From assembly GCA_947168885.1 (NCBI GenBank), contig CAMVNQ010000019.1:1-64000 (forward strand): a stretch of 64,000 bases of DNA, written 5' to 3'. The stretch comes from an uncultured Clostridia bacterium. GTDB taxonomy: Bacteria > Bacillota > Clostridia > Oscillospirales > Ruminococcaceae. Shown here in pieces: positions 1 to 42,500 of the stretch. Each line of letters opens with the position of its first letter. Positions within the stretch are counted from its first letter, which is position 1. The position numbers and the translations under genes were made by a program. The notes under the pieces are model-generated. The model made no database searches and was not told the origin of the DNA. It was given only the letters and a program-made list of their open reading frames with translations.

Positions 1-54
1 AGGACTTTGGAACAATAACTGCCGAAAGGCAGTTATTGAGGACACATTATTTAT
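1..54 (+). ncRNA. 3' end of a structured RNA-like repeat (copy 0)
   Basis: Positions 15-39 form a perfect hairpin (11-bp stem, GAAA loop), followed by GGACACATTATTTAT. The same arrangement ends the complete copy at 31721-31978, so this is the 3' tail of the same element cut by the window edge. In the 31.9-kb copy the matching hairpin has one C/A mismatch that is a C-G pair here, which fits selection on the stem. The 5' part lies outside the window. Confidence 0.6.
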
Positions 55-109
55 ATTATCATATCCGCCGCAAAAAAGCAATAGTTTACAGAAAAATCTC
101 GTCCTGATA

Positions 110-138
110 TTGCAAAATCGGAGAATTTATGATATACT
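110..138 (+). promoter_or_regulatory. SigA promoter for lepA
   Basis: TTGCAA (110-115) and TATACT (133-138) are separated by exactly 17 bp. They lie about 40 bp upstream of the lepA start codon. Confidence 0.6.
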
Positions 139-176
139 ATAATTTGTATATGTCTATAACAAACGGAGGAACAAAA

Positions 177-1994
177 ATGTCCGATAACAGCTACCTCGGC
201 GAAATACGCAATTTCTGCATAATCGCTCATATAGATCACGGCAAATCCACTCTCGCCGACCGCATTCTCGAACAGACAAGCACTGTGGCGGAGCGCGATA
301 TGGAGGAGCAGCTCCTCGATAATATGGAGCTCGAACGCGAGCGCGGCATCACCATAAAAGCCCGCGCCGTGCGCCTTAAATACAAGGCAGACAACGGCGA
401 AACGTATGTGTTCAACCTCATAGATACCCCCGGTCACGTCGATTTCAACTACGAAGTATCGCGTTCACTCAACGCGTGCGAGGGTGCTATACTTATCGTT
501 GACGCATCGCAGGGTATCGAAGCGCAGACTCTCGCCAACACATACCTCGCTATCGAGCAGGATCTCGAAGTCGTTCCCGTAATAAACAAGATAGACCTTA
601 TCTCCGCACGCCCGGACGAAGTAAAGCAGGAGATAGAGGATGTCATAGGCATACCCGCAATGGACGCGCCGCTTATCTCCGCGAAAATGGGTATCAATAT
701 AAAAGAAGTAATGGAGCGAATAGTCACCGATATACCCGCGCCGAAAGGCGATCCCGACGCACCTTTGAAAGCACTTATATTCGACAGCTATTACGACAGC
801 TACAAGGGCGTTATCGTGTATGTCCGCGTAAAAGAGGGGACTCTTCACGTCGGTGACCGGATCCGTATGATGGCTACAAAAGCGGAATTTCAGGTGGTCG
901 AGCTCGGATATATGGGAGCGACCAACCTTGTTCCCGCTTCCGAACTCCGCGCAGGCGAAGTCGGCTACATCGCCGCGTCGATAAAATCTATCGGCGATAC
1001 GAAAGTCGGCGATACCGTAACACGATGCGACACTCCCGCCGACGAGCCGCTCGCAGGATACAGAAGTGTCAATCCTATGGTATTCAGCGGCATCTACCCC
1101 GCCGACGGTTCAAAATACGGCGATCTGCGTGATGCGCTCGAAAAGCTGCGTCTCAACGACGCGTCGCTCACCTTTGAGCCGGAAACCTCGATCGCACTCG
1201 GCTTCGGTTTCCGCTGCGGTTTCCTCGGGCTTCTTCACATGGAGATAATACAGGAGCGTCTCGAACGCGAATACAATCTTGACCTTATCACGACTGCACC
1301 GTCCGTTGTTTATCAGATAGACAAGATGAACGGCGAGACCGTGCTCATCGACAACCCGACCAACTACCCCGACCCTACCGAGATAAAACAGGCTTATGAG
1401 CCTATGGTCGAAGCGCACGTCTATGCGCCGTCGGACTACGTCGGCAATATCATGGAACTCTGTCAGCAGCGCCGCGGCGTTTTCAAGGATATGAAATACC
1501 TCGACAAGACCCGCGTCGATCTGCATTACGACCTGCCGCTCAACGAGATAGTATATGATTTCTTCGATGCGCTCAAATCACGCACCAAGGGCTATGCAAG
1601 CTATGACTACGAATTCAAGGGATTCGTGCCGTCGAAGCTCGTAAAGCTTGATATACTGCTTAACGGAGACGTGGTCGATGCGCTTTCGTTCATCGTCTTT
1701 TCCGACAGCGCCTATCCGCGCGCACGAAAGATATGCGAACGCTTAAAGGACCATATCCCGCGCCAGCTCTTTGAAGTACCGGTGCAGGCTGCGGTCGGCG
1801 GCAAGATAATCGCCCGTGAGACAATAAAAGCTATGCGCAAGGACGTGCTCGCGAAGTGCTACGGCGGCGACATCACACGAAAGAAGAAGCTGCTCGAAAA
1901 ACAGAAAGAGGGCAAGAAGAGAATGCGCCAGTTAGGCTCGGTCGAAGTTCCTCAGGAAGCATTCATGGCAGTCCTCAAGCTTGATGATGAGTAA
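177..1994 (+). CDS. lepA: Elongation factor 4 (LepA), ribosome-associated translational GTPase
   Basis: This 605-aa protein has the usual LepA length. The G1 P-loop is visible near the N terminus (HIDHGKST), followed by G2/switch I (RERGITIKA), G3 (DTPGH) and G4 (NKID), then EF-G-like domains and the LepA C-terminal domain ([17 protein letters not shown]). LepA acts on the ribosome as a GTPase affecting initiation or back-translocation. The start at 177 is chosen over an in-frame ATG at 129 because GGAGG lies at 165-169 with correct spacing and the extra 16 residues do not fit the family. It overlaps the start of hemW, a linkage common in Firmicutes. Confidence 0.97.
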
Positions 1995-3057
1995 TATCGG
2001 GCTGTATATCCACGTACCGTTCTGCCTGTCAAAATGCCCGTACTGCGATTTCTATTCCGTAAGGTTCAGCCGCGAAAAAGCAAGGTCTTACGCCGACGCG
2101 GTAATACGGAACATAAAGCATTACGGCGAGCGATATGATACCGTCTATTTCGGCGGAGGCACACCGATACTGCTCTACGGGCACATCGGAGAGATTCTTG
2201 ATGCGGCGGACATTTCGGACGGCGCAGAAATAACAGTCGAAGCTAACCCGTGTATGGCGGAGCCGCATATTCTTGAAGCCCTGCGGAACGCAGGAGTGAA
2301 CAGACTTTCGTTCGGCGTGCAGTCTATGCAGCCGCAGGAGCTTTCGTTCCTCGGACGAAGACACACTGTATCACAGGCGGAGAACGCGTTTATCAATGCC
2401 CGGAACGCGGGATTTTCAAACATATCTGCGGATATGATGATAGGGCTTGCCGCACAGTCCGAAAACAGTATCACCGATACCGCGCATCGGCTCGCGGAGC
2501 TCGGCGCAGAACATATATCCGCATATATACTAAAAATAGAAGAGAACACACCGTTTGCATCACAAAACATTGAACTGCCCGACGAGGACAAAACAGCGGA
2601 ACTCTACCTGCACACAGTAAACACTCTCGCGGCACTCGGTTATGAGCAGTACGAGATCAGCAACTTCGCGAAGCCGGACTTCCGCAGCCGGCACAATCTG
2701 AAATACTGGCGGTGTGAAGAATACATCGGGATAGGTGCTTCGGCGCATTCATACTTCGGCGGAAAGCGATTCTGCGTAAAGCCGGATATCGACGGGTTCA
2801 TTGCCGCGCCCATTCAGCAGACGACTGTCACCGACGATAAAGCAGGCAGCTGGGAAGAATACGCGATGCTGAAGCTGCGGCTCACAGAGGGACTTACGTT
2901 CACGGAAGCCGAAGAATTCGGGAAAGCCGACGAGCTTCGCAAGAAAGCAAAGATGCTCCCCGCAGAACTCATAAACACATATGATGACCGTGTTTCGCTC
3001 ACAGCCAAAGGGTTTCTCGTGTCGAACACGGTGATAGGAGAACTTATATTCGGATAA
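1984..3057 (+). CDS. hemW: HemW-type radical SAM protein (heme chaperone, formerly HemN-like)
   Basis: This protein of about 357 aa carries the radical-SAM cluster motif CxxxCxxC (CLSKCPYC) near residues 14-21, followed by YFGGGTP and the HemW-type segment SFGVQSM. HemW binds heme and a 4Fe-4S cluster and has been confused with coproporphyrinogen III dehydrogenase. This short form lacks the extra N-terminal Cys of true HemN. It overlaps the lepA stop by about four codons (GATGATGAGTAA), so it is translationally coupled. Starts at 1984 and 1987 cannot be separated. Confidence 0.9.
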
Positions 3058-3099
3058 CCCCGAAGGGACGCATCCGCCGCGCCAGATTGTTTATAAAAA

Positions 3100-3256
3100 G
3101 GGCACCTCTAAAAACCGCTTTGAAAAGAGAAAATGAGATAATTGTGCCGAGAGCAAGGAGAGGCTCCGAAAGCGTGCTGGCGCACGGTGAGGAGGCTTGA
3201 CGCAGCTATCGGTGCAAGTAGCTCTTTTTCTCTCAAATGGGTTTTTAGAGGTTCCC
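3100..3256 (+). mobile_element. MITE-like 157-bp inverted-repeat element, copy 1
   Basis: The element begins GGGCACCTCTAAAAACC and ends with the near-perfect complement GGGTTTTTAGAGGTTCCC. It is flanked by AAAA on both sides (3096-3099 and 3257-3260), consistent with a 4-bp target duplication. It is base-for-base the reverse complement of 23126-23282. No transposase fits in 157 bp, so it is a non-autonomous element needing a helper in trans. It sits between hemW and the next gene. Confidence 0.85.
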
Positions 3257-3278
3257 AAAAGATACAGAGGGAGATAAG

Positions 3279-4088
3279 ATGTCATATCAGGACGATAAAC
3301 GTGAGCTTTTAAAGCTGAAACAAGGTATCATAGACGAGACAGAATCCGAGATACACGAGGAAGAAAAGCCTGTCTATGAGGTCCACGGCTTTAAAAAGAA
3401 AGTCGAAAATTTCTTTTATCACTATAAATGGCACGTTGCAGCAGGCGTTTTCTTTGCTGCCGCGCTTACATTCATGATCGTCACAACACTGCAAAAGAAA
3501 CAGGGCGACATTCGCGTACTTATGATAGCCAAAGACGGTACGAACGCTGCGAACCTTATGTACAAGACCGAGGAATTCGAGCAGGCACTTGAACTTTACT
3601 GCCCCGATTACGATGACAACGGCTATATCCATGTTGAAGTATATAACATTGACCTGAGCGACAACAACCCCGACCCCCAGTATTCACTCGCGTCGGTCAC
3701 GAAAATATCAAGCGAGATAATGCTTGGCGAAGCGCAGTTATTTATCGTTGATTCCGCGGCGGCAACAGCGGTCACCGACGGCGATCTTTCTCAGTTTGTC
3801 GATCTTGGCGCACTCTATCCGGACAACGAGCTTGTGAACGGTCCGTTCCTCCGTGTGAAGGGCAGCGGTCTCGACGTTAACGCACAGTATTACGAAGCCT
3901 GCCCCGACGACCTTTATGTTGCGGTTCGCAAGGTGAGCGAAACGGACAACAATGCCGCGCGTGCCGTTCCGGCACAGAAAAAAGCTCTTGAAGTAGTAGA
4001 TAACATCGTAAACGGCTACTACGCCGGCTGGGTCGATGACAGCGGCAGGATATACGGCATCAGCGGCAAGGAGGATTATACAAGATGA
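3279..4088 (+). CDS. Single-pass membrane protein of unknown function
   Basis: This 269-aa protein is not recognised as a named family. A charged N-terminal cytoplasmic part of about 50 residues (acidic stretch ESEIHEEEKP) is followed by one hydrophobic segment at about residues 54-71 (WHVAAGVFFAAALTFMIV). A C-terminal domain of about 195 residues is predicted outside the membrane. The start has a good site (GAGGGAGATAAG-ATG). Its stop overlaps the start of the next membrane protein (ATGA), so the two are probably co-translated and may act together. The MITE sits immediately upstream and may have moved the native promoter. Confidence 0.75.
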   Translation: MSYQDDKRELLKLKQGIIDETESEIHEEEKPVYEVHGFKKKVENFFYHYKWHVAAGVFFAAALTFMIVTTLQKKQGDIRVLMIAKDGTNAANLMYKTEEFEQALELYCPDYDDNGYIHVEVYNIDLSDNNPDPQYSLASVTKISSEIMLGEAQLFIVDSAAATAVTDGDLSQFVDLGALYPDNELVNGPFLRVKGSGLDVNAQYYEACPDDLYVAVRKVSETDNNAARAVPAQKKALEVVDNIVNGYYAGWVDDSGRIYGISGKEDYTR

Positions 4089-4636
4089 AGCGTGACAATA
4101 TTATCATAATATGGCTCAAAGGGCTTGCTTTCGCGGTATTCGGGAATATCCTCGGCGGCATTATGACCGTTTCGATAGCACCACTCCTGTCTGAATGGTA
4201 TATTCCGTATATAGCTCTGCTCTTCACCGTATTCATCTACGCATCGCTGGTGTTTACTGCGGGGCTACGTGACGGTCAGAAAGAAGCAAAGATGCTCCGC
4301 GCGAAACGTATCGAAAGCATACCGAAGTACCGCTGGATATTTACGGGACTTGCCGTATCGGCAGTTATGCTGATACCTTGTGCGGCGCTGCTCGCCTGCA
4401 CATTCGGGGCGTTCGCACTCACCGGTGAAATACTTCTCGGCTCGTACTTTGTGTTCGGAGCACTCGCACCCTCGTTCTTTATCGTCGAGGACGTTCAGCA
4501 GCTCTCACCGGTATTTCCGGTCGTACTCGCGGCAGTGTATCTTATAGTCACTCCCGTTGCTGCCCAGCTCGGATTTAAATTCGGCACTGACGAGAAATCC
4601 GCAAAAGACTTTATGTATGAGAAAAACGATAAATAG
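4085..4636 (+). CDS. Multi-pass membrane protein of unknown function
   Basis: This 183-aa protein has about four hydrophobic segments (roughly residues 9-32, 39-60, 85-130 and 143-162) and a charged C terminus. It starts in the ATGA overlap with the preceding single-pass protein, so the two form a small operon. No catalytic motif is visible. The pair may be a membrane complex, but that is inference only. Confidence 0.7.
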   Translation: MKRDNIIIIWLKGLAFAVFGNILGGIMTVSIAPLLSEWYIPYIALLFTVFIYASLVFTAGLRDGQKEAKMLRAKRIESIPKYRWIFTGLAVSAVMLIPCAALLACTFGAFALTGEILLGSYFVFGALAPSFFIVEDVQQLSPVFPVVLAAVYLIVTPVAAQLGFKFGTDEKSAKDFMYEKNDK

Positions 4637-4751
4637 GAATATGTGGGGCGCAGCCACAATAAAACGAGCACAAGATTATCACTTGTACTACAGAAAAGCG
4701 GAGTCGCCGCCGCGAGTCCGCGGCAAATTTCGATAAAAAAATAAACACAAT

Positions 4752-5726
4752 ATGGACTACATCAACATTGGAAACGTAAAAATCAAAAAGACCGCTGCAC
4801 TCGCGCCAATGGCGGGGGTAGCGGATACCGCCTTCCGGACGACCGCAAAACGCTTCGGCGCGGCTTATGTCGTCGGTGAAATGGTAAGCATAAAAGGACT
4901 CGCGTACAGCGACCGCAAATCCGCTGAACTCCTCACCATTACCGATGCCGAACGTCCCGCTGCTGTTCAGCTCTTCGGCTCAGAACCGGAATTCGTACCG
5001 AAAGCCGTTGAGATCGCAGAACGATATTCCCCCGATATAATCGACTTCAACGCGGGCTGCCCCGTCCCGAAAGTTGCCGGCAACGGCGCCGGAAGCGCTC
5101 TTATGAAAGATCCGAAGCTTTTCGGTGAAATGGTCACCGCACTCGTGAAAGCTTCCCACGTTCCCGTGACCGTTAAAATTCGCACCGGCTGGGACGCAGA
5201 GCACATCAACGCCGTTGAGACAGCACGTATCGCCGAAGAATGCGGAGCTTCCGCCGTAGTTGTCCACGGCAGGACCAAAACCCAGATGTACAGCGGTTCC
5301 GCCGACTGGAGCGTGATTGCCGCAGTAAAGCAGTCCGTCAGTATCCCCGTTATCGGTAACGGCGATGTCACAAGCGTGGAAAGATGCGTTTCGATGTACC
5401 GCGAGACGGGCTGCGACCTCGTGATGATAGCGCGCGGAGCTTACGGAAACCCGTGGCTGTTCCGCGATATAGATGACTATTTCGAGGGAAGACCCGCACA
5501 GCCTGCACCGACGCTCGACGAACGGCTCAACGTTATGAGGGAGCAGATAGAGCTGCTCGTGAAATGCAAGGGCGAGTTCATCGGGATGAAAGAAGCCCGC
5601 GCACAGGCGGCATTCTACCTAAAAGGCATGACGAACGCAGCAAAATACCGCGGTTTATGTGGTAAGCTCTCAACGCAGGACGACCTGTACGAGCTGATAA
5701 AGCTGATAAAGAAGGAGAACGAATAG
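4752..5726 (+). CDS. dusB: tRNA-dihydrouridine synthase (DusB type)
   Basis: This 324-aa FMN enzyme family reduces specific tRNA uridines to dihydrouridine. The TIM-barrel start APMAGVADTAFR, the active-site Cys motif FNAGCPVPKVAGNGAGSAL, the KIRTGWD strand, VVHGRTKTQMYSG and the phosphate-binding end IGNGDV...IARGAYGNPWLF are all present. Length and motif order match DusB of Gram-positives. No clear ribosome binding site precedes the ATG at 4752. The 115 bp upstream holds only weak hairpins. A small zinc-ribbon gene follows with its ribosome binding site inside the dus C terminus. Confidence 0.93.
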   Translation: MDYINIGNVKIKKTAALAPMAGVADTAFRTTAKRFGAAYVVGEMVSIKGLAYSDRKSAELLTITDAERPAAVQLFGSEPEFVPKAVEIAERYSPDIIDFNAGCPVPKVAGNGAGSALMKDPKLFGEMVTALVKASHVPVTVKIRTGWDAEHINAVETARIAEECGASAVVVHGRTKTQMYSGSADWSVIAAVKQSVSIPVIGNGDVTSVERCVSMYRETGCDLVMIARGAYGNPWLFRDIDDYFEGRPAQPAPTLDERLNVMREQIELLVKCKGEFIGMKEARAQAAFYLKGMTNAAKYRGLCGKLSTQDDLYELIKLIKKENE

Positions 5727-5728
5727 AC

Positions 5729-6232
5729 ATGGGGCTTGGATATGGTTACAAATGCTCGGGATGCGGCTGCGATTATAATGTATGGCTCGGCTGCGGACTG
5801 AGGTTTTCGAGTACATATAAAGAAACTATAGATGATATAAAAGCCGGAAAATACGGTGAGCAATGGCGCAACTTTTTTAACGAAGCGCAGTATATGGCAG
5901 TTGATGCCGAACAATATTTATTCATCTGTAAGGAATGCGGCAAATGGGAGGTCGATAAAAATCTCTCTCTGTACGCACCAAATAATCCGGAGTCCATTCC
6001 CGGAAAAAGATACGGGATAAAAACCGTTGAGGAATGGGGCTATATTCCCTATGTCATGTCTTATGACCTCACGCACGATTACCGGCTTGTGCACAGATAT
6101 GCTCACAAATGCGAAAAATGCGGAAAGAATATGAGTATGATCGGAGAAAAAGATCTGAATAAAGTTAACAAGCTTCCGTGTCCGAAGTGCGGAACGATCA
6201 ATGATATTCACGATTATGTAGATTGGGACTGA
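5729..6232 (+). CDS. Zinc-ribbon protein of unknown function
   Basis: This 167-aa soluble protein has Cys pairs that suggest at least two zinc sites: YKCSGCGCDY at the N terminus, ICKECGKWE in the middle, and CEKCGKNM followed by LPCPKCGTIN near the C terminus. Its ribosome binding site (AAGGAG, about 5713) overlaps the end of dusB and only 2 bp separate the genes, so it is co-transcribed. It might assist RNA modification, but no family was recognised. Confidence 0.8.
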   Translation: MGLGYGYKCSGCGCDYNVWLGCGLRFSSTYKETIDDIKAGKYGEQWRNFFNEAQYMAVDAEQYLFICKECGKWEVDKNLSLYAPNNPESIPGKRYGIKTVEEWGYIPYVMSYDLTHDYRLVHRYAHKCEKCGKNMSMIGEKDLNKVNKLPCPKCGTINDIHDYVDWD

Positions 6233-6279
6233 GACAGCTCTGCTGTCTGTGAATAAAACATTATCCGGGAGGACAACCA

Positions 6280-7167
6280 ATGATAGCACTTATTACTGGC
6301 GCAAGTTCGGGAATGGGCCGCTCGTTCGCGAAGATACTCGCGAGACGCGGCTTCAATCTCGTTATCGTTGCAAGACGCAGACAGCGCCTTGCCGAGCTGA
6401 AAAAGGAACTCACACAGAAATACGGCGTTAAGGTCAAGATACTTTGCCATGACCTTTCCGACCCTGACGAATGCAAACTGCTTTATGAAGAAGTCGAGCA
6501 CGCGAATATTGACATACTTATCAACAACGCAGGCTTCGGAGTTTACGGAAAATTCACCGAGACAGACCTCGACAGCGAGCTTAAAATGATTGATGTAAAT
6601 ATCAAGGCTGTGCATATCCTCACAAAACTGTTTTTGCAGAAATTCGTGAAACGCAACTACGGTTTTATCCTGAATGTCGCGTCACTCGCGGGATTTATGG
6701 CGGGACCGTTCTTCTCGTCGTACTATGCGTCGAAGAACTATGTTTTGCAGCTCACAAAAGCGCTCTACGAGGAGCTCCGCGCCGATCACCGAAATGTCTA
6801 TATCGGAGCGTTCTGCCCCGGACCCGTCAATACCGAGTTCAACGAGGTCGCCGGTGCCGATTTCGCGATAGGCGGACTTAACGAAATGGAAGCGGCAGAG
6901 TATGCAATAGAAAAGATGTTCGACGGACAGCTCGTAATAATCCCGTCGGTATATGCAAAGATCACAGCGGCGGCGGCAAAGGTTGTCCCGACGAAGATGA
7001 TGCTCGCGGCGACCGGAATGGTACAGCGCTCACGCACCGTTCATGAGCCGTCGATAGACACCCCGGTGAACACCGGCGGTGACGAGAAGCTCCGGCTTTC
7101 TGAAGAAGAGCTTGATAAGGCTCTTTCGGGCATTTACGACGACATTAAGGATATCAACGATCTGTAA
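6280..7167 (+). CDS. Short-chain dehydrogenase/reductase (SDR) family oxidoreductase
   Basis: This 295-aa protein opens with the NAD(P)-binding motif TGASSGMGRSFA, with VIVARRR after strand 2 suggesting NADPH preference. NNAGFG follows near residue 84, then the catalytic Ser (NVASLAG) and YxxxK (YYASK). The C-terminal tail of about 50 residues is charged and probably regulatory or disordered. The start has an excellent GGGAGG site. The substrate cannot be told from sequence; related proteins act on short acyl or keto compounds. Confidence 0.88.
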   Translation: MIALITGASSGMGRSFAKILARRGFNLVIVARRRQRLAELKKELTQKYGVKVKILCHDLSDPDECKLLYEEVEHANIDILINNAGFGVYGKFTETDLDSELKMIDVNIKAVHILTKLFLQKFVKRNYGFILNVASLAGFMAGPFFSSYYASKNYVLQLTKALYEELRADHRNVYIGAFCPGPVNTEFNEVAGADFAIGGLNEMEAAEYAIEKMFDGQLVIIPSVYAKITAAAAKVVPTKMMLAATGMVQRSRTVHEPSIDTPVNTGGDEKLRLSEEELDKALSGIYDDIKDINDL

Positions 7168-7210
7168 TGCCGTAATATTGGTTTCGTGAAACACTAAAAG
7201 GAGGACAGAT

Positions 7211-7912: not shown

Positions 7913-8043
7913 TGATCGGACGCATTATTTCATGACCGGTATTTCTTTGCCCGCGGTCGGTGGGGAAAGAGATGAAAATATAACTGTGTTAAATCATTTC
8001 ATGGTTCATACAGCCGAAAAACAATCAAAAAGGAGACTAAAAA

Positions 8044-30477: not shown

Positions 30478-31638
30478 TTATTCGATCTTCTCTTTATAGA
30501 ACATATGCTCTTCTATGCGGCGGTGGTAATAGACACTCATTACAAGCCCTATCGCCATATAGAGCGATATGACCGAAGTGCCGCCCGCGCTTATAAACGG
30601 AAGCGGTATTCCTATTACCGGAAGCACGCCGAGATCCATTCCTATGTTTATGACAGAGTGCGAGAACACCACGGCAAACACGCCGACGCAGACAAGGCGG
30701 CCGAGACTGTCCTTGGCACCAGACGCGACAGACAGCACCTTAACGCATATAACCGCAAGCAGCAGCACCGTAATGATGCACCCGATGAAACCGAGCGTCA
30801 TTCCTATATACGCAAAGATAAAGTCTGTGTCTATCTCCGGAACATAGGTGTACTTGTCGCTTCCGAATATGCCAAGCCCTGTTATCCGCCCCGAGCCGAG
30901 TGCCTTTTTGCCGAGATACTGCTGCATATATATGCCGAGCATCTCTTCCTGCTGCATCTCCGTATCCCAGAGTATCTGTATGCGCTTGATCTGATACGGC
31001 TGCATAAGCTTCGTCCATGCAAGCCAGCCGAGTACCGGCAGGGCAATTATCGCCGCAGCGATGTACTTCCATGATATACCCGCCGAAAACAGCATCACAA
31101 GGAATATCGAGATAAATACCAGAGCCGAACCGTCGTCTCCCTGCTTCATGATAATGAATATCGGAACGCCGCCGTGAACACACAGCAGCAGCATATTGAG
31201 TGGCTCATTGAGCCTTGACCCGAGCTTGCTTATATGAAGCGCAAACGTCATGATGAACGCGATCTTGAGCAGCTCGGACGGCTGGAACTGGATTATACCG
31301 AGGTTGAGCCAGCCGATATCGTCCGCACCTTCGACCCCTCGCCCGAGAGAGGTAAACAGAAGCAGCACAAGTATGAGCGAAGCAGGCGCGTAAATGAACC
31401 ACAGCTTCGCTATCAGTTTATAGTCTATCGCCGCTATCACGAGTGCAGCGAAAATACCTATCACAGAGGCAATAGCGTTTATCTTCCACTGGCGGGAACT
31501 GACCTGACCGCTTATGCCGTTCGCATCAAGCGTATAGAGCAGGAACACGCTGAACGCACTCATCAGTACGCACAGTATCAGAAGCGCTTTATCTAGATTT
31601 TTGAAATAACCTGATATATATTTTAAGATCTTTTTCAT
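30478..31638 (-). CDS. rodA: SEDS-family peptidoglycan glycosyltransferase (RodA type)
   Basis: This 386-aa integral membrane protein has about ten transmembrane segments and the SEDS signatures WLNLGIIQFQPSELLKI, ITGLGIFGSDKYTYVPEIDTDFIFAYIG and NIGMDLGVLPVIGIPLPFISAGGTS. It polymerises glycan strands during cell elongation with a class B PBP (not in the window). RodA is preferred over FtsW from the GMDLGVLPVIGIPLPF form; the split is not absolute. The start is ATG with AAAGAG upstream. Confidence 0.92.
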   Translation of the reverse strand: MKKILKYISGYFKNLDKALLILCVLMSAFSVFLLYTLDANGISGQVSSRQWKINAIASVIGIFAALVIAAIDYKLIAKLWFIYAPASLILVLLLFTSLGRGVEGADDIGWLNLGIIQFQPSELLKIAFIMTFALHISKLGSRLNEPLNMLLLCVHGGVPIFIIMKQGDDGSALVFISIFLVMLFSAGISWKYIAAAIIALPVLGWLAWTKLMQPYQIKRIQILWDTEMQQEEMLGIYMQQYLGKKALGSGRITGLGIFGSDKYTYVPEIDTDFIFAYIGMTLGFIGCIITVLLLAVICVKVLSVASGAKDSLGRLVCVGVFAVVFSHSVINIGMDLGVLPVIGIPLPFISAGGTSVISLYMAIGLVMSVYYHRRIEEHMFYKEKIE

Positions 31639-31720
31639 TTTGCTCTTTCTGATCGTTATTATAGCGCAGCAGCAATTATACTGCCGCTGTTATCACAAAT
31701 CAGGCAATACCGTTATTTAA

Positions 31721-31978
31721 TGTCTGCTCATCAGCCAATAAATTGCTTCGTAGCGCAGCTTGAAGCAATTTATTGGCTGCAAAAGTGCAAGGAAAATTTA
31801 TATATTTTAGGATTTTCCATGCACTTTTGTTCGTCCGAAGGACGAAATGAGCTTGACATCAAGGAATGTGTCCGTTGTTTAAATGCACCGCAGGCGCATT
31901 TAAACAACATCTGAAAATCTGTTTTGCAGATTTTCAGCCAATAACTGCCAAAAGGCAATTATTGAGGACACATTATTT
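31721..31978 (+). ncRNA. Highly structured RNA-like element, complete copy (A)
   Basis: The 258-bp region folds into two multi-branched modules. Module 1 is closed by GCTCAT (31726-31731) with ATGAGC (31847-31852) and holds a perfect 17-bp stem (31733-31749/31762-31778), a long stem (31780-31797/31812-31829) and a 7-bp stem (31830-31846). Module 2 is closed by AATGTGTCC (31865-31873) with GGACACATT (31966-31974) and holds a 13-bp stem (31874-31886/31896-31908), an 11-bp stem (31911-31921/31927-31937) and an 11-bp stem with one mismatch (31939-31964). It matches copies at 42351 and 1-54 only in the unpaired consensus blocks. No protein frame is convincing. Confidence 0.65.
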
Positions 31979-32045
31979 ATCACCTGTTTAATATTATATA
32001 CCAAAACAGAGCAATTTGCAATATTTTTGACAAAAATTTGTACTG

Positions 32046-33326
32046 TCACAGAACTGTCGGCATCTTCTCAACGCCGCAGTCCGCGAGAAACGTTGCTTCC
32101 GCTTCACCGATAAGCTCTCCGGGCATAACGACCGGAACGCACGGCGGACACGACGAACACACTTCCGCACAGATGCGGCCGACAGCCTGCATTACGGGAA
32201 CACTTTTCTTTGCGGCAAAACAAGCTTCACGCGGCGACAGCTTCCGCTCCGGTCTGAACACCGGGGCTGTCTTCGGCGCAAGCGGAGTTTTACGCGGAAT
32301 ATCGCGCAGTATCTCTGCGGTGCGTTCAAAGTCGTGCTCCGGCTGAACAACGGAGAACAGCAACACGACGTACCTCATTCCGCTCATCTCGCATTCCGCA
32401 CCGTTTTCACGCATGAGCGCCGCGAGCTCATATCCCGTGTATCCGAGTGCATTCGCGTCGATCGTTATACGCATTGCGTCACTCTCGCGAAGCGCGACCC
32501 CGTCTGCAGCAAGCGTTCGTTTAAGTTCACTGACCAGATCTGCCGTCCGCAGTGCTTCTGTGCGCTTTTCCGATATGTACGCATTGCAAAGGTCTAAGCT
32601 GTCGAGCATAAGATACGACGGACTTGAGCTCCCGAAAAGAGACATCGCCGCTTTCGCCGGAGCGAAAAAGACGCTGTCGGCAAGGTGAAGATATGCCGTT
32701 CCCGTTATAGCGGGCAGCGTTTTATGGGCGCTGTCGGCAGTCATATCCGCACCGAGCCGCAGAGGGTGGTCTCCGGTGAAGACTTTGTATGCACCGTGTG
32801 CATTATCGGTGAGCAGAAGTACACCGCGTTTCTTACAGACTTCTGAAAGCGCGGCAATATCAGCTTCTCCGCCGAGATAATCCACCGAATTAACGAATAC
32901 GGCAGCGGTATCGCTGTCTATGGCGGCTTCCACCGCGTCGTGAGAGAGCGCGCAGCCGAGGAACTCTTCGGGATATATCCATGTTATATCAAGATCAAGC
33001 AGTATAGCCGCGTTTACGAGGCTCTTGTGCGAGAAGCGTCCTGCCGCGATCTTCCGCTTTCCGGTGACCTCACAAGCGGCAGAAAGCATAGCCTGTATGG
33101 CAAGCGTCGCGCCCCCGCAGGAATAACAGGTATCCGACGCACCGAAGAGTGCCGCCGCGTTTCGTTCGCTCGCACGAATGATGCCGGCACAGTCATAAAG
33201 CTCGTCCGCACCGCTTATCTCGGTGATGTCATAAGGGTACATCAGCCCTTTTCCGCCGGGCATATGCAGACGGACAGTGCCGCTTTTTGCGTAGTTTTCC
33301 AGAAAATCGTGTATTGGTGTGTTCAT
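32046..33326 (-). CDS. Orn/Lys/Arg decarboxylase-family PLP protein (short form)
   Basis: This 426-aa fold-type I PLP enzyme begins MNTPIHDFLENYAKSG with GGAGG upstream. The PLP Lys lies in DSAHKTLPA, with CGGATLAIQAM for phosphate contact, and LLTDNAHGAYKVF supplies the Asp over the pyridine ring. It lacks the large N-terminal wing of inducible amino-acid decarboxylases, as in the short Firmicute forms acting on Arg, Lys or Orn for polyamines. C-terminal domain ends CPPCVPVVMPGE. The substrate is not determined. Confidence 0.88.
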   Translation of the reverse strand: MNTPIHDFLENYAKSGTVRLHMPGGKGLMYPYDITEISGADELYDCAGIIRASERNAAALFGASDTCYSCGGATLAIQAMLSAACEVTGKRKIAAGRFSHKSLVNAAILLDLDITWIYPEEFLGCALSHDAVEAAIDSDTAAVFVNSVDYLGGEADIAALSEVCKKRGVLLLTDNAHGAYKVFTGDHPLRLGADMTADSAHKTLPAITGTAYLHLADSVFFAPAKAAMSLFGSSSPSYLMLDSLDLCNAYISEKRTEALRTADLVSELKRTLAADGVALRESDAMRITIDANALGYTGYELAALMRENGAECEMSGMRYVVLLFSVVQPEHDFERTAEILRDIPRKTPLAPKTAPVFRPERKLSPREACFAAKKSVPVMQAVGRICAEVCSSCPPCVPVVMPGELIGEAEATFLADCGVEKMPTVL

Positions 33327-35004: not shown

Positions 35005-35029
35005 TGGGTTTAACGCTCCTTTCAGAATA

Positions 35030-35209: not shown

Positions 35210-35276
35210 AGTATCACAGCCTTTCGGAGATATGATATGCTCATATCTCCGAATTATCCGTGATACCTTATGGATT

Positions 35277-36755
35277 TCAGCAGAACGGGTTCTCTGTTCT
35301 GTAAAGCATTCCCTTCGGACGTGCGAAGCCTATGTCCTGAACGCCGAGAAGTCTGAATGTCTCATACAGGAGCTTTCCGTAGTGACCGAACGCAACAGCG
35401 CCGTGATGCGGGAAGCGCTTTTCGATAAGGACGTGTCTGTAGAAGCGTCCCATTTCCTTTATCGCGAAGATACCGATACCGCCGAAGGAACGTGTCTTGA
35501 CGTCGAGTATCTCGCCCTCTGCGATATACGAACGGAGAATGCCGTCGGAATCGCACTGGAGACGGTAGAATGTGATATCGCTCGCAGCGATGTCGCCTTC
35601 AAGAGTACCTCTTGTAAAGTCGGGGTCGCTTCCCTCGGGTTCGAGAAGTCTGTGCTGAATGAGCTGGTACTTGACAGCTCTGTCAGCGCACATCTTGCAC
35701 TCGGGAGTATTTCCGCAGTGGAAGCCCATGAATGTATCGGTAAGAGAATAATCGTACTTGCCCTTGATGTCCTCGTCGTAGATGTACTGCGGTACGGAGT
35801 TGTTGATATCGAGAAGAGTAACAGTGTCTGCGGAGATGCAGATACCGATGTACTCACTGAGAGCGCCGTAGATATCCACCTCACAGGATACCGGTATTCC
35901 GCGGCTCGCGAGACGGCTGTTGACATAGCAGGGCTCGAAGCCGAACTGGGACGGGAATGCCGGCCAGCACTTGTCGGCGAATGCAACATACTTGCGCGCG
36001 CCCTTGTGGTTCTCTGCCCAGTCAAGGAGCGTAAGCTCGAACTGTGCCATTCTCTCGCTCATCTCGGGGTAGTACTTGCCCTCGCCCATTTCCTTCGCCA
36101 TATCAGCGCATACTTCGGGGATACGCGGGTCGCCGGCGTGCTCTTTGAACGAAACGAGAAGGTCGAGCTCCGAGTTTTCCTCGATCTCTACACCAAGCTC
36201 ATAAAGACCCTTTATGGGAGCGTTGCAGGCAAAGAAGTCCTGCGGACGCGGACCGAAAGTGATGATCTTGAGGTCCTTTACTCCTATGTACGCGCGTGCG
36301 ATCGGAACGAAGTCAGCGATCATAGCAGCGATGTCATCGGCTGTTCCTACGGGGTAGGACGGGATATAGCCCTTGAGATGACGCATTCCGAGGTTGTACG
36401 AGCAGTTGAGCATTCCGCAGTAAGCGTCGCCTCTGCCGTTTATCATGTCACCGTCGCCTTCAGCTGCGGCCACGAACATACAAGGACCGTCAAATTCCTT
36501 CGCGATGAGCGTTTCGGGAGTCTCGGGGCCGAAGTTGCCGAGGAACACCACGAGAGCGTTGCAGCCCTGCTTGTTCACATCTTCAACGGCTTTGAGCATA
36601 TCCTTCTCGTTCTCTACCGTCACAGGACATTCGTAGAGCTCGCCCTTGTAGGCTGCCTTTATTGCAGCACGTCTCTTTTCAGACAAAGCTATAGGGAAGC
36701 AGTCTCTTGAAACCGCTACCATACCAAGCTTCACCTGAGGGATATTCGTTATCAT
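35277..36755 (-). CDS. L-fucose/L-arabinose isomerase family protein
   Basis: This 492-aa protein belongs to the FucI/AraA fold by its layout: an N-terminal Rossmann-like domain (KLGMVAVSRDCFPIALSEKRR), the central LVVFLGNFGPETPE segment, PVSCEVDIYGALSEYI with a metal-ligand Glu, and FMGFHCGNTPE late in the chain. The family interconverts aldoses and ketoses such as fucose/fuculose. Its neighbour is a sugar-binding lipoprotein, supporting sugar catabolism. Individual catalytic residues were not verified. GGAGG precedes the ATG. Confidence 0.85.
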   Translation of the reverse strand: MITNIPQVKLGMVAVSRDCFPIALSEKRRAAIKAAYKGELYECPVTVENEKDMLKAVEDVNKQGCNALVVFLGNFGPETPETLIAKEFDGPCMFVAAAEGDGDMINGRGDAYCGMLNCSYNLGMRHLKGYIPSYPVGTADDIAAMIADFVPIARAYIGVKDLKIITFGPRPQDFFACNAPIKGLYELGVEIEENSELDLLVSFKEHAGDPRIPEVCADMAKEMGEGKYYPEMSERMAQFELTLLDWAENHKGARKYVAFADKCWPAFPSQFGFEPCYVNSRLASRGIPVSCEVDIYGALSEYIGICISADTVTLLDINNSVPQYIYDEDIKGKYDYSLTDTFMGFHCGNTPECKMCADRAVKYQLIQHRLLEPEGSDPDFTRGTLEGDIAASDITFYRLQCDSDGILRSYIAEGEILDVKTRSFGGIGIFAIKEMGRFYRHVLIEKRFPHHGAVAFGHYGKLLYETFRLLGVQDIGFARPKGMLYRTENPFC

Positions 36756-36833
36756 TGTTTGTTTCCTCCTTAAAGTTAAATCGTTTACATTTATAAGCGG
36801 AAAAACAGCTTCATGCTGCGTTTTCCGATATAT

Positions 36834-37832
36834 TCAGTTGTTCCAGTACTGCTCGCGTTCGTGTGTCTGCGGACGCATCATAAGGTTATGCACGCACTCG
36901 GCGGGAGCCTTGTCCTCAAAGCACACCTTATACAGCTCGTCGATTATCGGCGTTCTTACGTGCATACTGTATGCCTGCTTGTACGCTATGCTGCAGCAGT
37001 TATAGCCCTCGACAGTCCCGACGTTCGCGACGGCATCCGCGGCTTTCATTCCCTCGCCGATGAGTATTCCAGCTCTGTGGTTGCGGGAATGTTTTGAGGT
37101 GCAGGTAACTATGAGGTCACCGACACCCGCGAGACCCGTAAAAGTCTCCCATTTCGCGCCCATAGCCGAACCGAGCCTTGTTATCTCGGCAAGACCGCGG
37201 GTCATAAGTGACGCTATCGTGTTGTCGCCAAGCTTCATCCCCTCGACGATACCGCAGCACAATGCTATCGGGTTCTTCAGAGCCGAAGCTATCTCACAGC
37301 CCGCAACATCGCTGTTGCCGTAGATACGGAATGTCTCGGTCTGAAGAGCTTCCTGAAGCTGTTCGGCGGCGGACATATCCTCGGACGACATAACGACGGT
37401 GGTAGGTATTCCGCGTCCGACCTCTTCGGCGTGACACGGGCCGCCCATTACGACGAGCTTGTTGTCCGGTATCTCCTCGGAGATCACCTGAGAGAGACGT
37501 TTTGCCGAGCCCTCTTCAAAGCCCTTTCCGACGTTAAGTACGATTGTGTTCTTGTCTATCACCGCAGCAGCTTTCTTTGCGACACTGCGAACATACGGCG
37601 ACGGTATTGCAAACACAAGCACATCGGCGCCGTTTATGCATCCAATGTCTGTTGTAAATCCTATCCTGTTCGATACCGCAACGCCCGGGAGCAGTCGTTT
37701 ATGCTCACCATGGCGGAGTATATCGCTTATCTCTTCCTCACTGTTCGACCACGCGGTAACTTCGTGACCCGCCTTGTTCCAGAGAACGGCGAGCGCGGTG
37801 CCGAAACCGCAGCCGAGTATCGTTACTTTCAT
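36834..37832 (-). CDS. gpsA: Glycerol-3-phosphate dehydrogenase [NAD(P)+]
   Basis: This 332-aa protein starts MKVTILGCGFGTALAVLW (NAD-binding GxGxxG variant with Cys at the second Gly), includes FAIPSPYVR, GKGFEEG, VVMGGPCHAEEV, the catalytic Lys in SALKNPIALCCGIVEG and GLAGVGDLIVTCTSKHSRN. It supplies sn-glycerol-3-phosphate for phospholipids. The start at 37832 has GGAG upstream; a longer in-frame start at 37913 would overlap the glgA terminator. Confidence 0.95.
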   Translation of the reverse strand: MKVTILGCGFGTALAVLWNKAGHEVTAWSNSEEEISDILRHGEHKRLLPGVAVSNRIGFTTDIGCINGADVLVFAIPSPYVRSVAKKAAAVIDKNTIVLNVGKGFEEGSAKRLSQVISEEIPDNKLVVMGGPCHAEEVGRGIPTTVVMSSEDMSAAEQLQEALQTETFRIYGNSDVAGCEIASALKNPIALCCGIVEGMKLGDNTIASLMTRGLAEITRLGSAMGAKWETFTGLAGVGDLIVTCTSKHSRNHRAGILIGEGMKAADAVANVGTVEGYNCCSIAYKQAYSMHVRTPIIDELYKVCFEDKAPAECVHNLMMRPQTHEREQYWNN

Positions 37833-37859
37833 TGTTATCTCCGAATTCAGCAGAAATAA

Positions 37860-37898
37860 CGCCGCGCACCTCAATGTTGTCTGTCGGGATGCGCGGCG
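37860..37898 (-). terminator. Probable glgA terminator
   Basis: CGCCGCGCA (37860-37868) pairs with TGCGCGGCG (37890-37898). A modest T-rich stretch (GTTATTTCTG) follows on the (-) strand. It separates glgA from gpsA. Confidence 0.6.
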
Positions 37899-37922
37899 CT
37901 CATACCTTTGCACTGGACAGCA

Positions 37923-39359
37923 TCAGCTCTCCCAGCTGCACAGTTCCTCGTAAAGTCCGATATAGAGCTTTGCGGACTGCTTCCAGCTGAAGTCCTTCTT
38001 CATACCTGTCTCGACAAGCTTCTTCCACTTCGTCTGATCATCATAGACTTCCTTCGCTCTGTTGATAGCTCCGAGCATATCGAGCGCGTTGTAGGACTGG
38101 AATGTGAAGCCTACGCCCTCACCGCTCTCATCGCCGTAGTCCATGATCGAATCCTTAAGGCCGCCGGTAGCGCGTACTATCGGGACGGTTCCGTAGCGAA
38201 GCGCGATCATCTGCGCAAGTCCGCAGGGCTCGCTCTTGCTCGGCATAAGGAACATATCGGCGCCGGCGTAGATACGCTTAGCGTAAGCGGGGATATAGCC
38301 GCACTTGAAGCTTACCGCCTCGGGGTACTTGTTCTGCATATAGTAGAAGTAGTCTTCATACTGCTTGTCGCCGGAACCGAGTACAACGACCTTGATACCG
38401 GAGCAAACTACGTCGTCAAGGACGCACTTGATAAGGTCGAAGCCCTTGTGCTCAACAAGGCGGGAGATTATACCCATAACGGGGGAATCGCCGCCGGGAA
38501 GCCCCGCTTCTTCAAGGAGCTTTTCCTTACAGGTCTTCTTGCCTGCCATCTTGCCGACGCTGAAATTCGCGGGGATATCCTTGTCGGTCTTGCTGTTGTA
38601 CATATCGGTGTCGATACCGTTAAGGAAGCCGCAGGTCTTGTACTGCTTCGAATTGAGGCAGCGGTCGAGACCGTGCGAGAACCACGGGTTGAGTATCTCC
38701 TTAGCGTAAGTCGGCGATACAGTGGTTACCTTATCCGCCATTTCGATAGCGCCCTTCATGAGGTTCGCGTCGCCGTCATACTCGATGATCGAGCTTAAAT
38801 GTCTCGGTATCGAGAAGATCTCTTCTGTGAGTTCAAGTCCGTACTGTCCCTGGTAGCCGATATTGTGTATCGTGAACACATTGCGTATTCCCCACATATT
38901 GTGGTGATACTTATAGTAGATGTTGTAGTATATCGGGATAAGGGCAGTCTGCCAATCGTTGGAATTGATTATATCGGGCTTGATCTCAAGATGCTCGAGC
39001 ATTTCGAGAACGGCTCTCGAGAAGAACGCGTATCTTTCTGCGTCATCGTAATATCCGTAAAGGCCGAAATCACGCTTGAAATAATACTCATTGTCGATGA
39101 AATAATACTTGACACCGTTCAGTTCCGTTGTGAAGATACCGCAGTACTGGGAGCGCCAGCCTACCGGTACATAGAAATTCGTGATGTATTCGAGTTTTTC
39201 CCGCACTTCGGGCTTGACCGTATTGATGTAGTAAGGCATGACCACCATACACTCGTGACCAGCCTCAACGAGCGCTTTCGGGAGTGATCCCGCTACATCT
39301 GCAAGTCCGCCGGACGCTGCAAACGGCTGCGCCTCACTTGCGGCATATAATATCTTCAT
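37923..39359 (-). CDS. glgA: Glycogen synthase (ADP-glucose, GT5)
   Basis: This 478-aa protein begins MKILYAASEAQPFAASGGLADV, the GT5 KxGGL-type motif as ASGGLADV, with VVMPYY, NDWQTALIPI, FTIHNIGYQGQY and the C-terminal Rossmann signature PSKSEPCGLAQMIALRYGTVPIV. It extends alpha-1,4-glucan from ADP-glucose. The usual glgC/glgP partners are absent from the window. AGGAGGAG precedes the ATG; a longer frame from 39518 has no site and starts upstream of the promoter. Confidence 0.94.
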   Translation of the reverse strand: MKILYAASEAQPFAASGGLADVAGSLPKALVEAGHECMVVMPYYINTVKPEVREKLEYITNFYVPVGWRSQYCGIFTTELNGVKYYFIDNEYYFKRDFGLYGYYDDAERYAFFSRAVLEMLEHLEIKPDIINSNDWQTALIPIYYNIYYKYHHNMWGIRNVFTIHNIGYQGQYGLELTEEIFSIPRHLSSIIEYDGDANLMKGAIEMADKVTTVSPTYAKEILNPWFSHGLDRCLNSKQYKTCGFLNGIDTDMYNSKTDKDIPANFSVGKMAGKKTCKEKLLEEAGLPGGDSPVMGIISRLVEHKGFDLIKCVLDDVVCSGIKVVVLGSGDKQYEDYFYYMQNKYPEAVSFKCGYIPAYAKRIYAGADMFLMPSKSEPCGLAQMIALRYGTVPIVRATGGLKDSIMDYGDESGEGVGFTFQSYNALDMLGAINRAKEVYDDQTKWKKLVETGMKKDFSWKQSAKLYIGLYEELCSWES

Positions 39360-39448
39360 GATAAGCTCCTCCTGTCTAAAGCTCTTTACGAGCTGCTCGG
39401 ACCGTTCAGTCAGTCCGTTTCGGGCAGCAATACACCTACCCAAATATA

Positions 39449-39476
39449 ATTGTACCACATTTTTGGAAAATTTCAA
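39449..39476 (-). promoter_or_regulatory. Promoter for glgA with structured leader
   Basis: (-) strand TTGAAA (39476-39471) and TACAAT (39454-39449), 16-bp spacing. The 80-nt leader downstream holds a stem (GCTGC/GCAGC around a CGGAC/GTCCG hairpin) that may affect translation. Confidence 0.55.
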
Positions 39477-39537
39477 TAGATTTATGAAAATATCATCATT
39501 TTTGACTAACAAATTCATTAAATCTGCACAAACAGCA

Positions 39538-42309
39538 TTATTGACCGAGAAGCTTTTTCAGCTCGCCCCAATCAATGTTGTCTGCCGCGGCGTTTATCGC
39601 TTTCATAAGTTCCTTATGCATATCCGGGAAGGAGTATTCGTTAAGTTCATCGAGGATACCGCAGAGTCCGTCGTAATCAAGGTCAGACACCGCAACGCGC
39701 AGATCATCGTACGCATCGTACATCATCGCCTCGGTAGCTTCGGGCTTAGGTGCTTCATCTTTCCGGGGCGAAGCGGCAGCGCTGTACTTCTCCCCTACCC
39801 CGCGGTACATTGCGAGCAGTGTGGGTGTACTTGCGTGAATAAGGTCAAGATCGCCGTCATCGCCTGCTTTTTCGAGCTTCTCCGCGAGATCGGCAAGTTC
39901 CGTCTCACCCACAAGGCGCGACGTGCTCTTCAGTGCGTGCACCTTTATGGTGTAGTTTGCCCAATCCGCGTTGTTATACAGCATCTCTATCTCATCGGCA
40001 CCGGACTGTATCTTTCCAAGATATATTCCGAGGAGCTCATCCCTCTGCTCTTCCGCGCCACTGCTGACCGCGGCTGCGGGTGCGGGGCTGTGATCGTCGT
40101 CGGAAGCGGGCTTTACAAGCTCTTCCGGCAGGAAAGCGACTATCATCGACTCAAGGCGCGCGGGATCTATCGGCTTTGTGAGATATTCGCTGAAACCTGC
40201 GGCAATATACTTCTCGCGAACTCCGGAAATGGCATTCGCGGTGATGCACACGGACGGGGTCTCACGGTTAAGGCTGTCCGCATCGGCTTTGAGTTCGGCA
40301 AGAGTTTCGATGCCGTCCTTGTTCGGCATACGGTGATCGAGAAAGATAATGTCGTACTTCTTCTCTCGCGCAAGCTTTATCGCTTCATCGCCGCTCATAG
40401 CGGTATCTATCTGAATACGGGTCTTTTTCAGAAGATTTGTGAATACCACAAGATTCATCTCGGTATCATCCACCACAAGTATATGCGCATCCGGCGCGTT
40501 GAAAGACTCACGATACTTTCCGCGGGCATCCACGGATCTTTCAAGCGACTTCGAGTAATCGCCGATCGGCTCGTCCTTGACTATCTCCTGCTTTATAACA
40601 AAGCGGAAATTTGATCCCTTTCCGTAAACGCTGTCAACTTCAAGTCTGCTGTCCATGAGAGCAAGGAGCCGCTGAACGATAGTTATTCCGAGACCGGTGC
40701 CCTCAATTGAACGGTTGCGCTTTTCTTCGATCCTCTCGAAGGCTATGAAAAGCTTGTCTATATCTTCCTGCTTTATGCCGGCACCTGTATCGCGTACACT
40801 CACCTTGAGGTAAACGAAGTTATCGAAGCGCTCATGCTCCACACTTAAGGTAACTGTGCCTTCATTCGTGTACTTTACCGCATTCGTGAGCAGGTTCGTT
40901 ATTATCTGCTTTATGCGTATCTCATCGCCGTGAAGGGTATCGGGTATAGACGGATCGACCTTGACCACGAATTCAAGGTCCTTCTCCGCAGCGCGCGGCG
41001 CTATCATATTCGACAGATCGTTAAGCACGGACGAGAGCTGATAATCAACAGGAATAAGCTCGGTCTTCCCCGCCTCTATCTTCGAAAAATCGAGTATATC
41101 GTTTATAAGTCCGAGCAGGGTGTTGCCCGCCTTGCGGATATCCTCCGCATATTCGAGCGTCTGCCTTTCGCCGCTTTCACGGAGTATCATCTCGTCCATA
41201 CCGAGAATGGCATTGATAGGAGTCCTTATCTCATGGGACATATGGGCAAGGAAGTCGCCCTTCGCCTGAGAGACCGTCTCCGCGAAACGCCTGTCTTCCT
41301 GAAGCAGCTCGATATATCTGCGCTCGTCGGTATTGTCATAAACGCTTATCTGATAGCCCTTTTTCTTTCCCTTGAAATATACATACGTCACCGTTATACG
41401 GTATGAGACATGGTTGCGTTCCATAGCAAACTCGGACACGTGCCCGTTGATGTCGGTCATGTCGAACCACCGGTGTATAAGATCAAAGCGCGGGTCGCCC
41501 CTGTTGAGCGGTCCGTCGATATACAGTTCTCCGAGTTCGGGAAGGTATTCGATAGCCGGTCCGCTGCAGCCGAGATAGCTTCTCGACTTATCAAACAGAG
41601 CATAGCCTATCTTGCCCTCCTGCGTGATAGAGTCTATTGCCATTTCCTCTACCGAATACATTCTAAGGCGATCACTCAGGACAAGCATGACGATCTGTGT
41701 AAGGTTGTACGCCATCGGCTGGGTCTCGACGGGTATCTGAAAAACTCTCGGAATAAAGAACGACATTACGTCGATGACATAGATTATGCACAGAATTATA
41801 GCATTCTTCTTTGAAACGTCTTTTTTGGTAAAACTGAACACGAGCACGGAAACATCTATAAGCAGATAGATTATGACCATTGCGTAATACACGGTATGCG
41901 CGGGGCCGTAGGATTTCACAAGATGCGAGACTCCGTTTTCAAGAACGAGTTCAGACTCGGTATAGAGCAGATGATTCAGGTTCGTTGTAAGAGCTATCAT
42001 GCCGACAGCAACATTTCCGATAAACAGCGGCACACTTATAAACCGCGGAAATTTCAGCTTACAGAACGAGAATATATAAGACATCATTCCGAGCTGGATA
42101 AAGCCGGAAAGCAGATAGACAAGACCGTTCGCAAGTATAGCCTCGGTGTATGCTTCCGCAACTGCAACACGCATATACGCGAGGTTGATTATAGGGATAA
42201 GCAGGAAAACAACGGAATAGCTCACGGAAATGTATCTGTTCCATTTCCAAAGGAATATTCCCGAAAGCGTAGTCGCGATATAGAGCGAGATCTGGTAATA
42301 AAGCAGCAT
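39538..42309 (-). CDS. Hybrid sensor histidine kinase with 7TM-type sensor, receiver and Hpt domains
   Basis: This 923-aa protein has seven hydrophobic segments (about residues 5-210) like the histidine-kinase 7TM sensory region, a PAS-like domain (230-325), and a HisKA domain with phospho-His 359 (AHMSHEIRTP). An HATPase domain follows (465-575; NAVKY, DTGAGI, GTGLGI). A receiver has phospho-Asp 658 (IIFLDHRMPNKDG), and an Hpt domain has His 791 (KVHALKSTSR). No response regulator with an output domain is adjacent, so the final target is unknown. Start with AGGGGAT upstream. It is convergent with nothing and lies upstream of glgA on the same strand. Confidence 0.93.
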   Translation of the reverse strand: MLLYYQISLYIATTLSGIFLWKWNRYISVSYSVVFLLIPIINLAYMRVAVAEAYTEAILANGLVYLLSGFIQLGMMSYIFSFCKLKFPRFISVPLFIGNVAVGMIALTTNLNHLLYTESELVLENGVSHLVKSYGPAHTVYYAMVIIYLLIDVSVLVFSFTKKDVSKKNAIILCIIYVIDVMSFFIPRVFQIPVETQPMAYNLTQIVMLVLSDRLRMYSVEEMAIDSITQEGKIGYALFDKSRSYLGCSGPAIEYLPELGELYIDGPLNRGDPRFDLIHRWFDMTDINGHVSEFAMERNHVSYRITVTYVYFKGKKKGYQISVYDNTDERRYIELLQEDRRFAETVSQAKGDFLAHMSHEIRTPINAILGMDEMILRESGERQTLEYAEDIRKAGNTLLGLINDILDFSKIEAGKTELIPVDYQLSSVLNDLSNMIAPRAAEKDLEFVVKVDPSIPDTLHGDEIRIKQIITNLLTNAVKYTNEGTVTLSVEHERFDNFVYLKVSVRDTGAGIKQEDIDKLFIAFERIEEKRNRSIEGTGLGITIVQRLLALMDSRLEVDSVYGKGSNFRFVIKQEIVKDEPIGDYSKSLERSVDARGKYRESFNAPDAHILVVDDTEMNLVVFTNLLKKTRIQIDTAMSGDEAIKLAREKKYDIIFLDHRMPNKDGIETLAELKADADSLNRETPSVCITANAISGVREKYIAAGFSEYLTKPIDPARLESMIVAFLPEELVKPASDDDHSPAPAAAVSSGAEEQRDELLGIYLGKIQSGADEIEMLYNNADWANYTIKVHALKSTSRLVGETELADLAEKLEKAGDDGDLDLIHASTPTLLAMYRGVGEKYSAAASPRKDEAPKPEATEAMMYDAYDDLRVAVSDLDYDGLCGILDELNEYSFPDMHKELMKAINAAADNIDWGELKKLLGQ

Positions 42310-42350
42310 TTCTTATCCCCTGCCTTTCCGTAATATTCCATTTATCAACG

Positions 42351-42500
42351 TCTGCTCATCAACCGTAATTCTGCTTCAGAACAAAGCGCGAAAACGATCT
42401 GCGCTTATGTCCGTCCGCAGCGCGGAATGAGCCTGGCATCAAGAGATGTGTCCGTTGTAAAAGGCACTGAAAGCGTGTTTTACAACATAGGAAAGCCTTT
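42351..42500 (+). ncRNA. Structured RNA-like element, 3'-truncated copy (B)
   Basis: It shares with copy A the blocks GTCTGCTCATCA, AATGAGC and ATGTGTCCGTTGT in the same order. The stems between differ but still pair: TTCTG/CAGAA, AAGCGC/GCGCTT, TCCG/CGGA, GTTGTAAAA/TTTTACAAC and GAAAG/CTTTC. The final hairpin and the GGACACATT closing strand are missing, so module 2 is not closed. Confidence 0.6.

Follow-up and report, generated by a model that had tools for sequence, protein, structure and literature searches.

The window analysed here (the first 64,000 bases of a 71.5-kb contig, G000:C19) contains a complete copy of a 254-bp repeat that is probably a non-autonomous element of the MITE type, moved as DNA by a putative trans-acting enzyme into TWNTTA sites, where it leaves a target duplication. 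Comparison among copies and genomes reveals two folded modules with covarying stems, a duplication at the flanks, sites that are empty in relatives, spread to many copies, and recurrent internal deletions. Our best reading is a new family of non-autonomous, MITE-like elements whose fold is unusual.

Results

The initial annotation of this window had reported three copies of a structured, RNA-like element. All three copies are present, with slightly different edges, and all of their features lie on the + strand. The complete copy (ATGTCTGCTCATCA ... GAGGACACAT) spans positions 31720–31973, as defined by direct repeats and by an alignment of 43 full copies, and it is flanked by a target-site duplication in which TATTTA at 31714–31719 is matched by the same letters at 31974–31979. 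The second copy (1–47; match at C19:13-54) comprises only the right end, i.e., the last 47 bases, because the window begins at the first base of the contig; it is followed by its right-hand target-site repeat, TATTTA (48–53), the left-hand one lying off the contig. The third copy (42348–42520, the right edge being approximate) is decayed, has no last hairpin or right end, and has several broken stems. The G+C content is 0.39 for the complete element, 0.422 on average over the 43 copies, and 0.477 for the window. The element is without genes, and its conserved features are stems, not codons. Its length is nearly constant, as 41 of 56 distinct sequences measure 252–255 bp. The genome from which the window comes holds 56 element matches, a count that includes partial hits and hairpin self-matches, and 20 exact occurrences of the left-end 15-mer.

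The fold of the complete copy supports the two multi-branched modules that had been proposed earlier. Module 1 (31720–31859; helices 1–5, from the fold and pair counts) is closed by the helix ATGTC/GACAT plus GCTCAT/ATGAGC, in which the element's first bases take part, and has three hairpins at 31732–31779, 31780–31829, and 31830–31846. An unpaired linker, CAAGGA (31860–31865), identified from the fold and the alignment, joins it to module 2 (31866–31973; helices 6–9, likewise from the fold and pair counts), which has three hairpins of its own (31874–31908, 31911–31937, and 31939–31964) and is closed by ATGTGTCC/GGACACAT, where GGACACAT forms the last bases of the element. Each end of the element thus pairs with a partner near the middle and not with the opposite end, giving two separate modules. 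The terminal inverted repeats, as read from the sequence, are imperfect (ATGTCTGCTCA vs ATGTGTCCTCA, 9 of 11 letters). When the segment 31715–31990 was folded, its energy was −129.2 kcal/mol compared to a mean of −60.2 for shuffled sequences (z −14.4), and none of 200 shuffles was as low. The third copy gave a weak fold (z −1.86; 10 of 200 shuffles as low), and with its last hairpin and right end gone it contradicts the previous claim that every stem still pairs. Among distant relatives, those in G024 and G025 keep the two-module plan with different stems (most clearly L237, L238, and L242), and the two copies in G018 keep the end sequences while their plan is variable.

We measured covariation on full-length copies. 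Both ends were found 180–400 bp apart in 56 distinct sequences, and the 43 of these that measure 250–258 bp make up the alignment A1. Standard pairs occupy 97.7% of the 4031 pair cells of these 43 distinct full copies, and both sides have changed in 29 of 94 pairs. The covariation score was 0.259, as compared to a shuffled mean of 0.109 (0 of 500 shuffles as high) and to 0.031–0.056 for slid partners, a control biased towards any structure drawn from the alignment being tested; further pair types were no more numerous than in the shuffles (69 vs 73.6). These results uphold the covarying stems of the initial annotation.

The stem letters were then divided, with identical copies collapsed beforehand, into shared letters, which are common to at least four copies, and private letters, which occur in one copy only. 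In A1, a Watson–Crick pair is kept by 743 of 849 shared letters vs none of the 36 private ones. The contrast is weaker on the smaller single-module sets (shared 221/261 vs private 3/25 in one, and 319/358 vs 12/36 in the other). On the A1 tree, which is disturbed by module exchange between copies, 32 double Watson–Crick changes fall on internal branches and 7 on terminal ones; the internal branches also carry 9 changes from Watson–Crick to G-U and 5 to A-C. If the host used the RNA at each place, the stems of every copy would be expected to be kept. Because the shared letters pair and the private ones do not, the fold seems to matter for spreading and not later; it appears to be kept along spreading lineages and lost after landing.

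Elements with both ends and flanks numbered 74, of which 53 are bordered by identical 6-mers, 4 by identical 7-mers, and 17 by neither; by comparison, in 2000 shuffles of the flanks, identical 6-mers averaged 13.7 and never exceeded 25. The target logo, built from 123 left ends and 136 right ends, including some chance hits, reads TWNTTA, commonly followed by T. Its right half, TTA, is stricter than its left half, and therefore insertion is oriented relative to the site. Among 36 full copies, the core is shared in 22 of 108 pairs that are at least 95% alike and in 102 of 522 other pairs (both 0.20). Since the likeness of the core is unrelated to that of the element, the core seems to be derived from the target, which speaks against an element that brings its own core, as it would in site-specific recombination that requires identity. 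Where unequal flanks differ by a single letter, 9 of 13 differences are at position 2 or 3, which are variable site positions; exchange between copies or mis-assembly could explain them. Tandem copies with one repeat in common also occur (e.g., L234).

Four sites of the own genome were joined without the element and aligned to the own genome and to 15 relatives. In 6 of 15 relatives an unbroken alignment crosses the junction of the site in front of a PhoH-like gene, and at a second site it does so in 7 of 15; the remaining two junctions are crossed in one relative each, with length differences. Junction letters were read at two of the four sites. At the PhoH site, five of the eight sequences read run through without an insert, and their site letters differ from the TAATTA of the own genome; one has 28 extra bases, and two are unaligned upstream. 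At the fourth site, the relative G107 reads CTTTATTG followed by CATCTC where the own genome has CTTTATTA-element-TTATTACATCTC, so that TTATTG is present once in G107. A search for empty sites in the DNA around the collected copies gave two candidates, neither of them clean. Together with the genome-wide copies and the flanking duplications, the sites found empty in relatives agree with the earlier description of the element as mobile or multi-copy. The copy at the PhoH site (L004, G000:C2:108870-109123) lies between a TATAAT-like box, recognised by eye, and the start of the gene, whose product is PhoH-like (PF02562, E 6.8e-96); its hairpins would therefore lie in the mRNA leader.

We used the strand bias of the pairs to compare RNA with DNA as the folding molecule, since folding of the + strand should make G-U commoner than A-C. 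For pairs predicted from both strands, the G-U and A-C cells numbered 19 and 21 in module 1, 41 and 16 in module 2, and 58 and 40 in whole copies. The excess in module 2 is moderate. Prediction from the + strand alone gave 130 G-U vs 40 A-C cells in whole copies, 41 of the 130 coming from one nearly fixed G-U pair. The mean energy did not differ between the + and − strands for module 1 (−71.2 and −71.4; + lower in 12 of 31) and was a little lower on + for module 2 (−61.0 and −58.8; + lower in 20 of 32). An exactly reverse-complemented hairpin top was found in four modules, looser matches being uncounted; the first hairpin of module 1 accounts for one case, the first hairpin of module 2 for two, and the last hairpin of module 2 for one. 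Such flips are most simply DNA events. By crude ORF calling on 42 copies, 32 lie outside long joined ORFs, and all four arrangements relative to the neighbouring genes are found (−+ 13, −− 12, +− 9, and ++ 8). The reading as a structured RNA is thus not demonstrated, given the lack of a G-U excess in module 1, the flipped tops, and the four gene arrangements; the element, above all module 2, may nevertheless have an RNA role.

The suggested relation to HEARO/omega RNA is not supported. In an Rfam search of the window, only two tRNAs reached the gathering score, and for 31600–32100 the matches up to E = 10 did not include HEARO (RF02033); other Rfam families were rejected as well, as none matched the element. 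None of six window proteins around the copies matches IscB or TnpB.

To define the distribution of the element, we searched genomes of its genus and order. A DNA search matched 16 of 99 genomes: all of them belong to the genus (16 of 60, the own genome included), and the 39 genomes from other genera of the order gave no match. With stricter filters, the module 1 covariance model (R1) matched 18 of 71 genomes of the genus. The linker pattern was found in at least 104 named stretches, from MAGs labelled Ruminiclostridium sp., Ruminococcus sp., Ruminococcaceae bacterium, and Clostridia bacterium, many of which come from water deer, goat, or rumen samples. Plasmid and phage records gave no blastn match at E 1e-5, and viral contigs gave no exact match to the linker pattern.

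A search for end pairs in the collected loci returned only full, truncated, and deletion copies, and no copy with a gene or transposase between its ends. Four enzyme families were tried as the mover, none of which tracks the element. Y1 is absent from the element-rich G033 and present in G009 and G013, where no element was found; the own genome has no DDE_Tnp_1 and no PDDEXK_2; and rve, of which the own genome has two, is missing from G002, G033, G042, and G058. Such absences are weak evidence, because many assemblies are incomplete and multi-copy elements are easily lost.

Forms of up to 240 bp flanked by a target-site duplication numbered 27; two contain N runs and were left out, and the other 25 are all different. 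Junctions recur among these short forms, at 51, 126, and 154 bp. At both 126 and 154 bp, one junction is common to different subfamily sequences, which fits, as expected, repeated deletion between short repeats at the hairpin bases. Equal lengths had suggested mobile short forms, an idea that was mostly dropped because the subfamily sequence varies among the 126- and the 154-bp forms that share a junction. An identical 126-bp form occurs twice in one genome (L290/L190 and L389), the second time with a one-base mismatch in its flanks, so a shortened form may be mobile in its own right. The lone left ends that lie within contigs are truncated copies or chance matches.

Discussion

We propose that an enzyme supplied in trans would move the 254-bp unit as DNA to A/T-rich TWNTTA sites in an orientation fixed relative to the site, and that a staggered cut of 6, sometimes 7, bases would give rise to the duplication. 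The two ends would fold independently, each giving a three-armed module, probably in DNA that is single-stranded or extruded, and the enzyme or a replication step may need this fold. Copies that go on to produce new ones would then be selected for their fold, and a landed copy would be free to decay by point mutation and hairpin loss. Effects on neighbouring genes, such as that of the copy in front of the PhoH-like gene, would be incidental. A bolder version of this scheme, which we regard as unlikely, is a new route of transposition in which an enzyme reads the two folded three-armed ends, as single-stranded DNA or RNA, by their shape and inserts the element in a fixed orientation at TWNTTA with a duplication of 6–7 bases. 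If so, the fold would be a cis-acting signal, and the mover would lie outside the four transposase families tried.

The strong covariation would also be expected of a mobile structured RNA, whose + transcript folds and spreads via RNA, either as a SINE-like template of reverse transcriptase or through an RNA-guided system of the HEARO/omega type. The G-U excess of module 2 (41 vs 16) and the position of L004, which would be in the mRNA leader of the PhoH-like gene, point the same way. Against this stand the balance of G-U and A-C in module 1 (19 vs 21), the four modules with flipped hairpin tops, the lack of any Rfam match, and the six neighbouring window proteins, none of which is IscB or TnpB; in addition, a DNA transposase would better account for imperfect terminal inverted repeats and a short duplication whose length hardly varies. 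We therefore hold spread via RNA to be improbable. The flipped tops raise another explanation, as they are expected if one arm is copied onto the other during replication (template switching at a palindrome), a process that would keep the arms matched without selection for the fold. It would also agree with the internal branches, on which the 32 double Watson–Crick changes exceed the 9 to G-U and 5 to A-C, yet it should have corrected the private mutations, of which 0 of 36 are paired in A1, and by itself it leaves the conserved closing helices that span the modules and the unpaired blocks unexplained; we give it little credence. It is very unlikely that the element is a duplicated host cis-regulatory RNA, such as a leader or riboswitch-like RNA: L004, behind its TATAAT-like box and before the PhoH-like gene, has the position of one, but the copies occur in all four gene arrangements (n = 42; crude ORF calling), sites are empty in relatives, and individual copies do not keep the fold.

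Movement as DNA by an enzyme acting in trans, the reading we prefer, can be set beside known systems. HEARO/omega RNAs, which are linked to IscB, are likewise multi-copy, mobile, and structured; the present element differs in having no HEARO match and no IscB/TnpB among the six scanned neighbours. Elements of the IS200/IS605 type and REP sequences have their own hairpin at each end and insert oriented to a short T-rich site, and the IS200/IS605 type is not known to leave a target duplication. A derivative of that type is not supported, since the element has a target duplication and the presence of Y1 does not track it. MITEs are described as non-autonomous, shorter than ~500 bp, and without a transposase gene, with a target duplication and terminal inverted repeats of ~4–30 bp; they are A/T-rich, mainly intergenic, and highly base-paired, and have an autonomous relative with similar ends (PMC10969869, PMC3049150). 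The present element is short, gene-free, A/T-rich, and base-paired, has imperfect inverted repeats, and is flanked by identical 6- or 7-mers in 57 of 74 cases. By these features it counts as a MITE, apart from the autonomous relative, for which neither the four enzyme families tried nor the collected loci gave a candidate.

The nearest described systems found are bcr1–bcr3 and BOX/RUP. The repeats bcr1–bcr3 of the Bacillus cereus group are described as mobile and MITE-like; a TTTAT motif is linked to their mobility, copies are found in UTRs, and they resemble the present element as short, high-copy chromosomal repeats of one bacterial group (PMC6542083, PMC3446304). By description, the element differs from them in its host, its TWNTTA site, and its 6–7 bp duplication. 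BOX and RUP of Streptococcus pneumoniae are small interspersed repeats with extensive predicted secondary structure, BOX being modular, and their terminal inverted repeats are reported to pair with each other (PMC3049150), unlike the present element, in which each end pairs near the middle to give two independent three-armed modules. No published description of the element was found in the literature searched, which mostly excludes subscription journals.

Covariation is widely taken as a sign of functional RNA, and here it is strong within a mobile DNA repeat. The contrast between shared and private letters suggests that only spreading lineages keep the fold, and the same test is applicable to other repeated structured-RNA candidates. 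In these assemblies many contig ends carry the element, which can also place strong hairpins in front of host genes.

Other features of the window

An exact 24-base direct repeat, GTTCAATTCCCGTACGGGTCACCA, occurs at 43737–43760 and 63046–63069, one copy being the 3′ end of a tRNA-Glu gene. The ~19.3 kb between the repeats encode a tyrosine integrase (43877–45091), a relaxase-like protein (50531–51070), and a resolvase-like protein (52156–52773), and this segment is probably an integrated mobilisable element. Inside it, at 52903–54971, a glutamine-amidotransferase-like protein adjoins an amidoligase-like protein. Two neighbouring zinc-ribbon genes have a repeated stretch near their starts (59414–59569 and 60647–60802; 83% over 156 bases). 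A stretch of the integrase coding sequence (44090–44152) is repeated (73%) at 63425–63487, just past the right boundary, perhaps as a relic of a second element related to the first.
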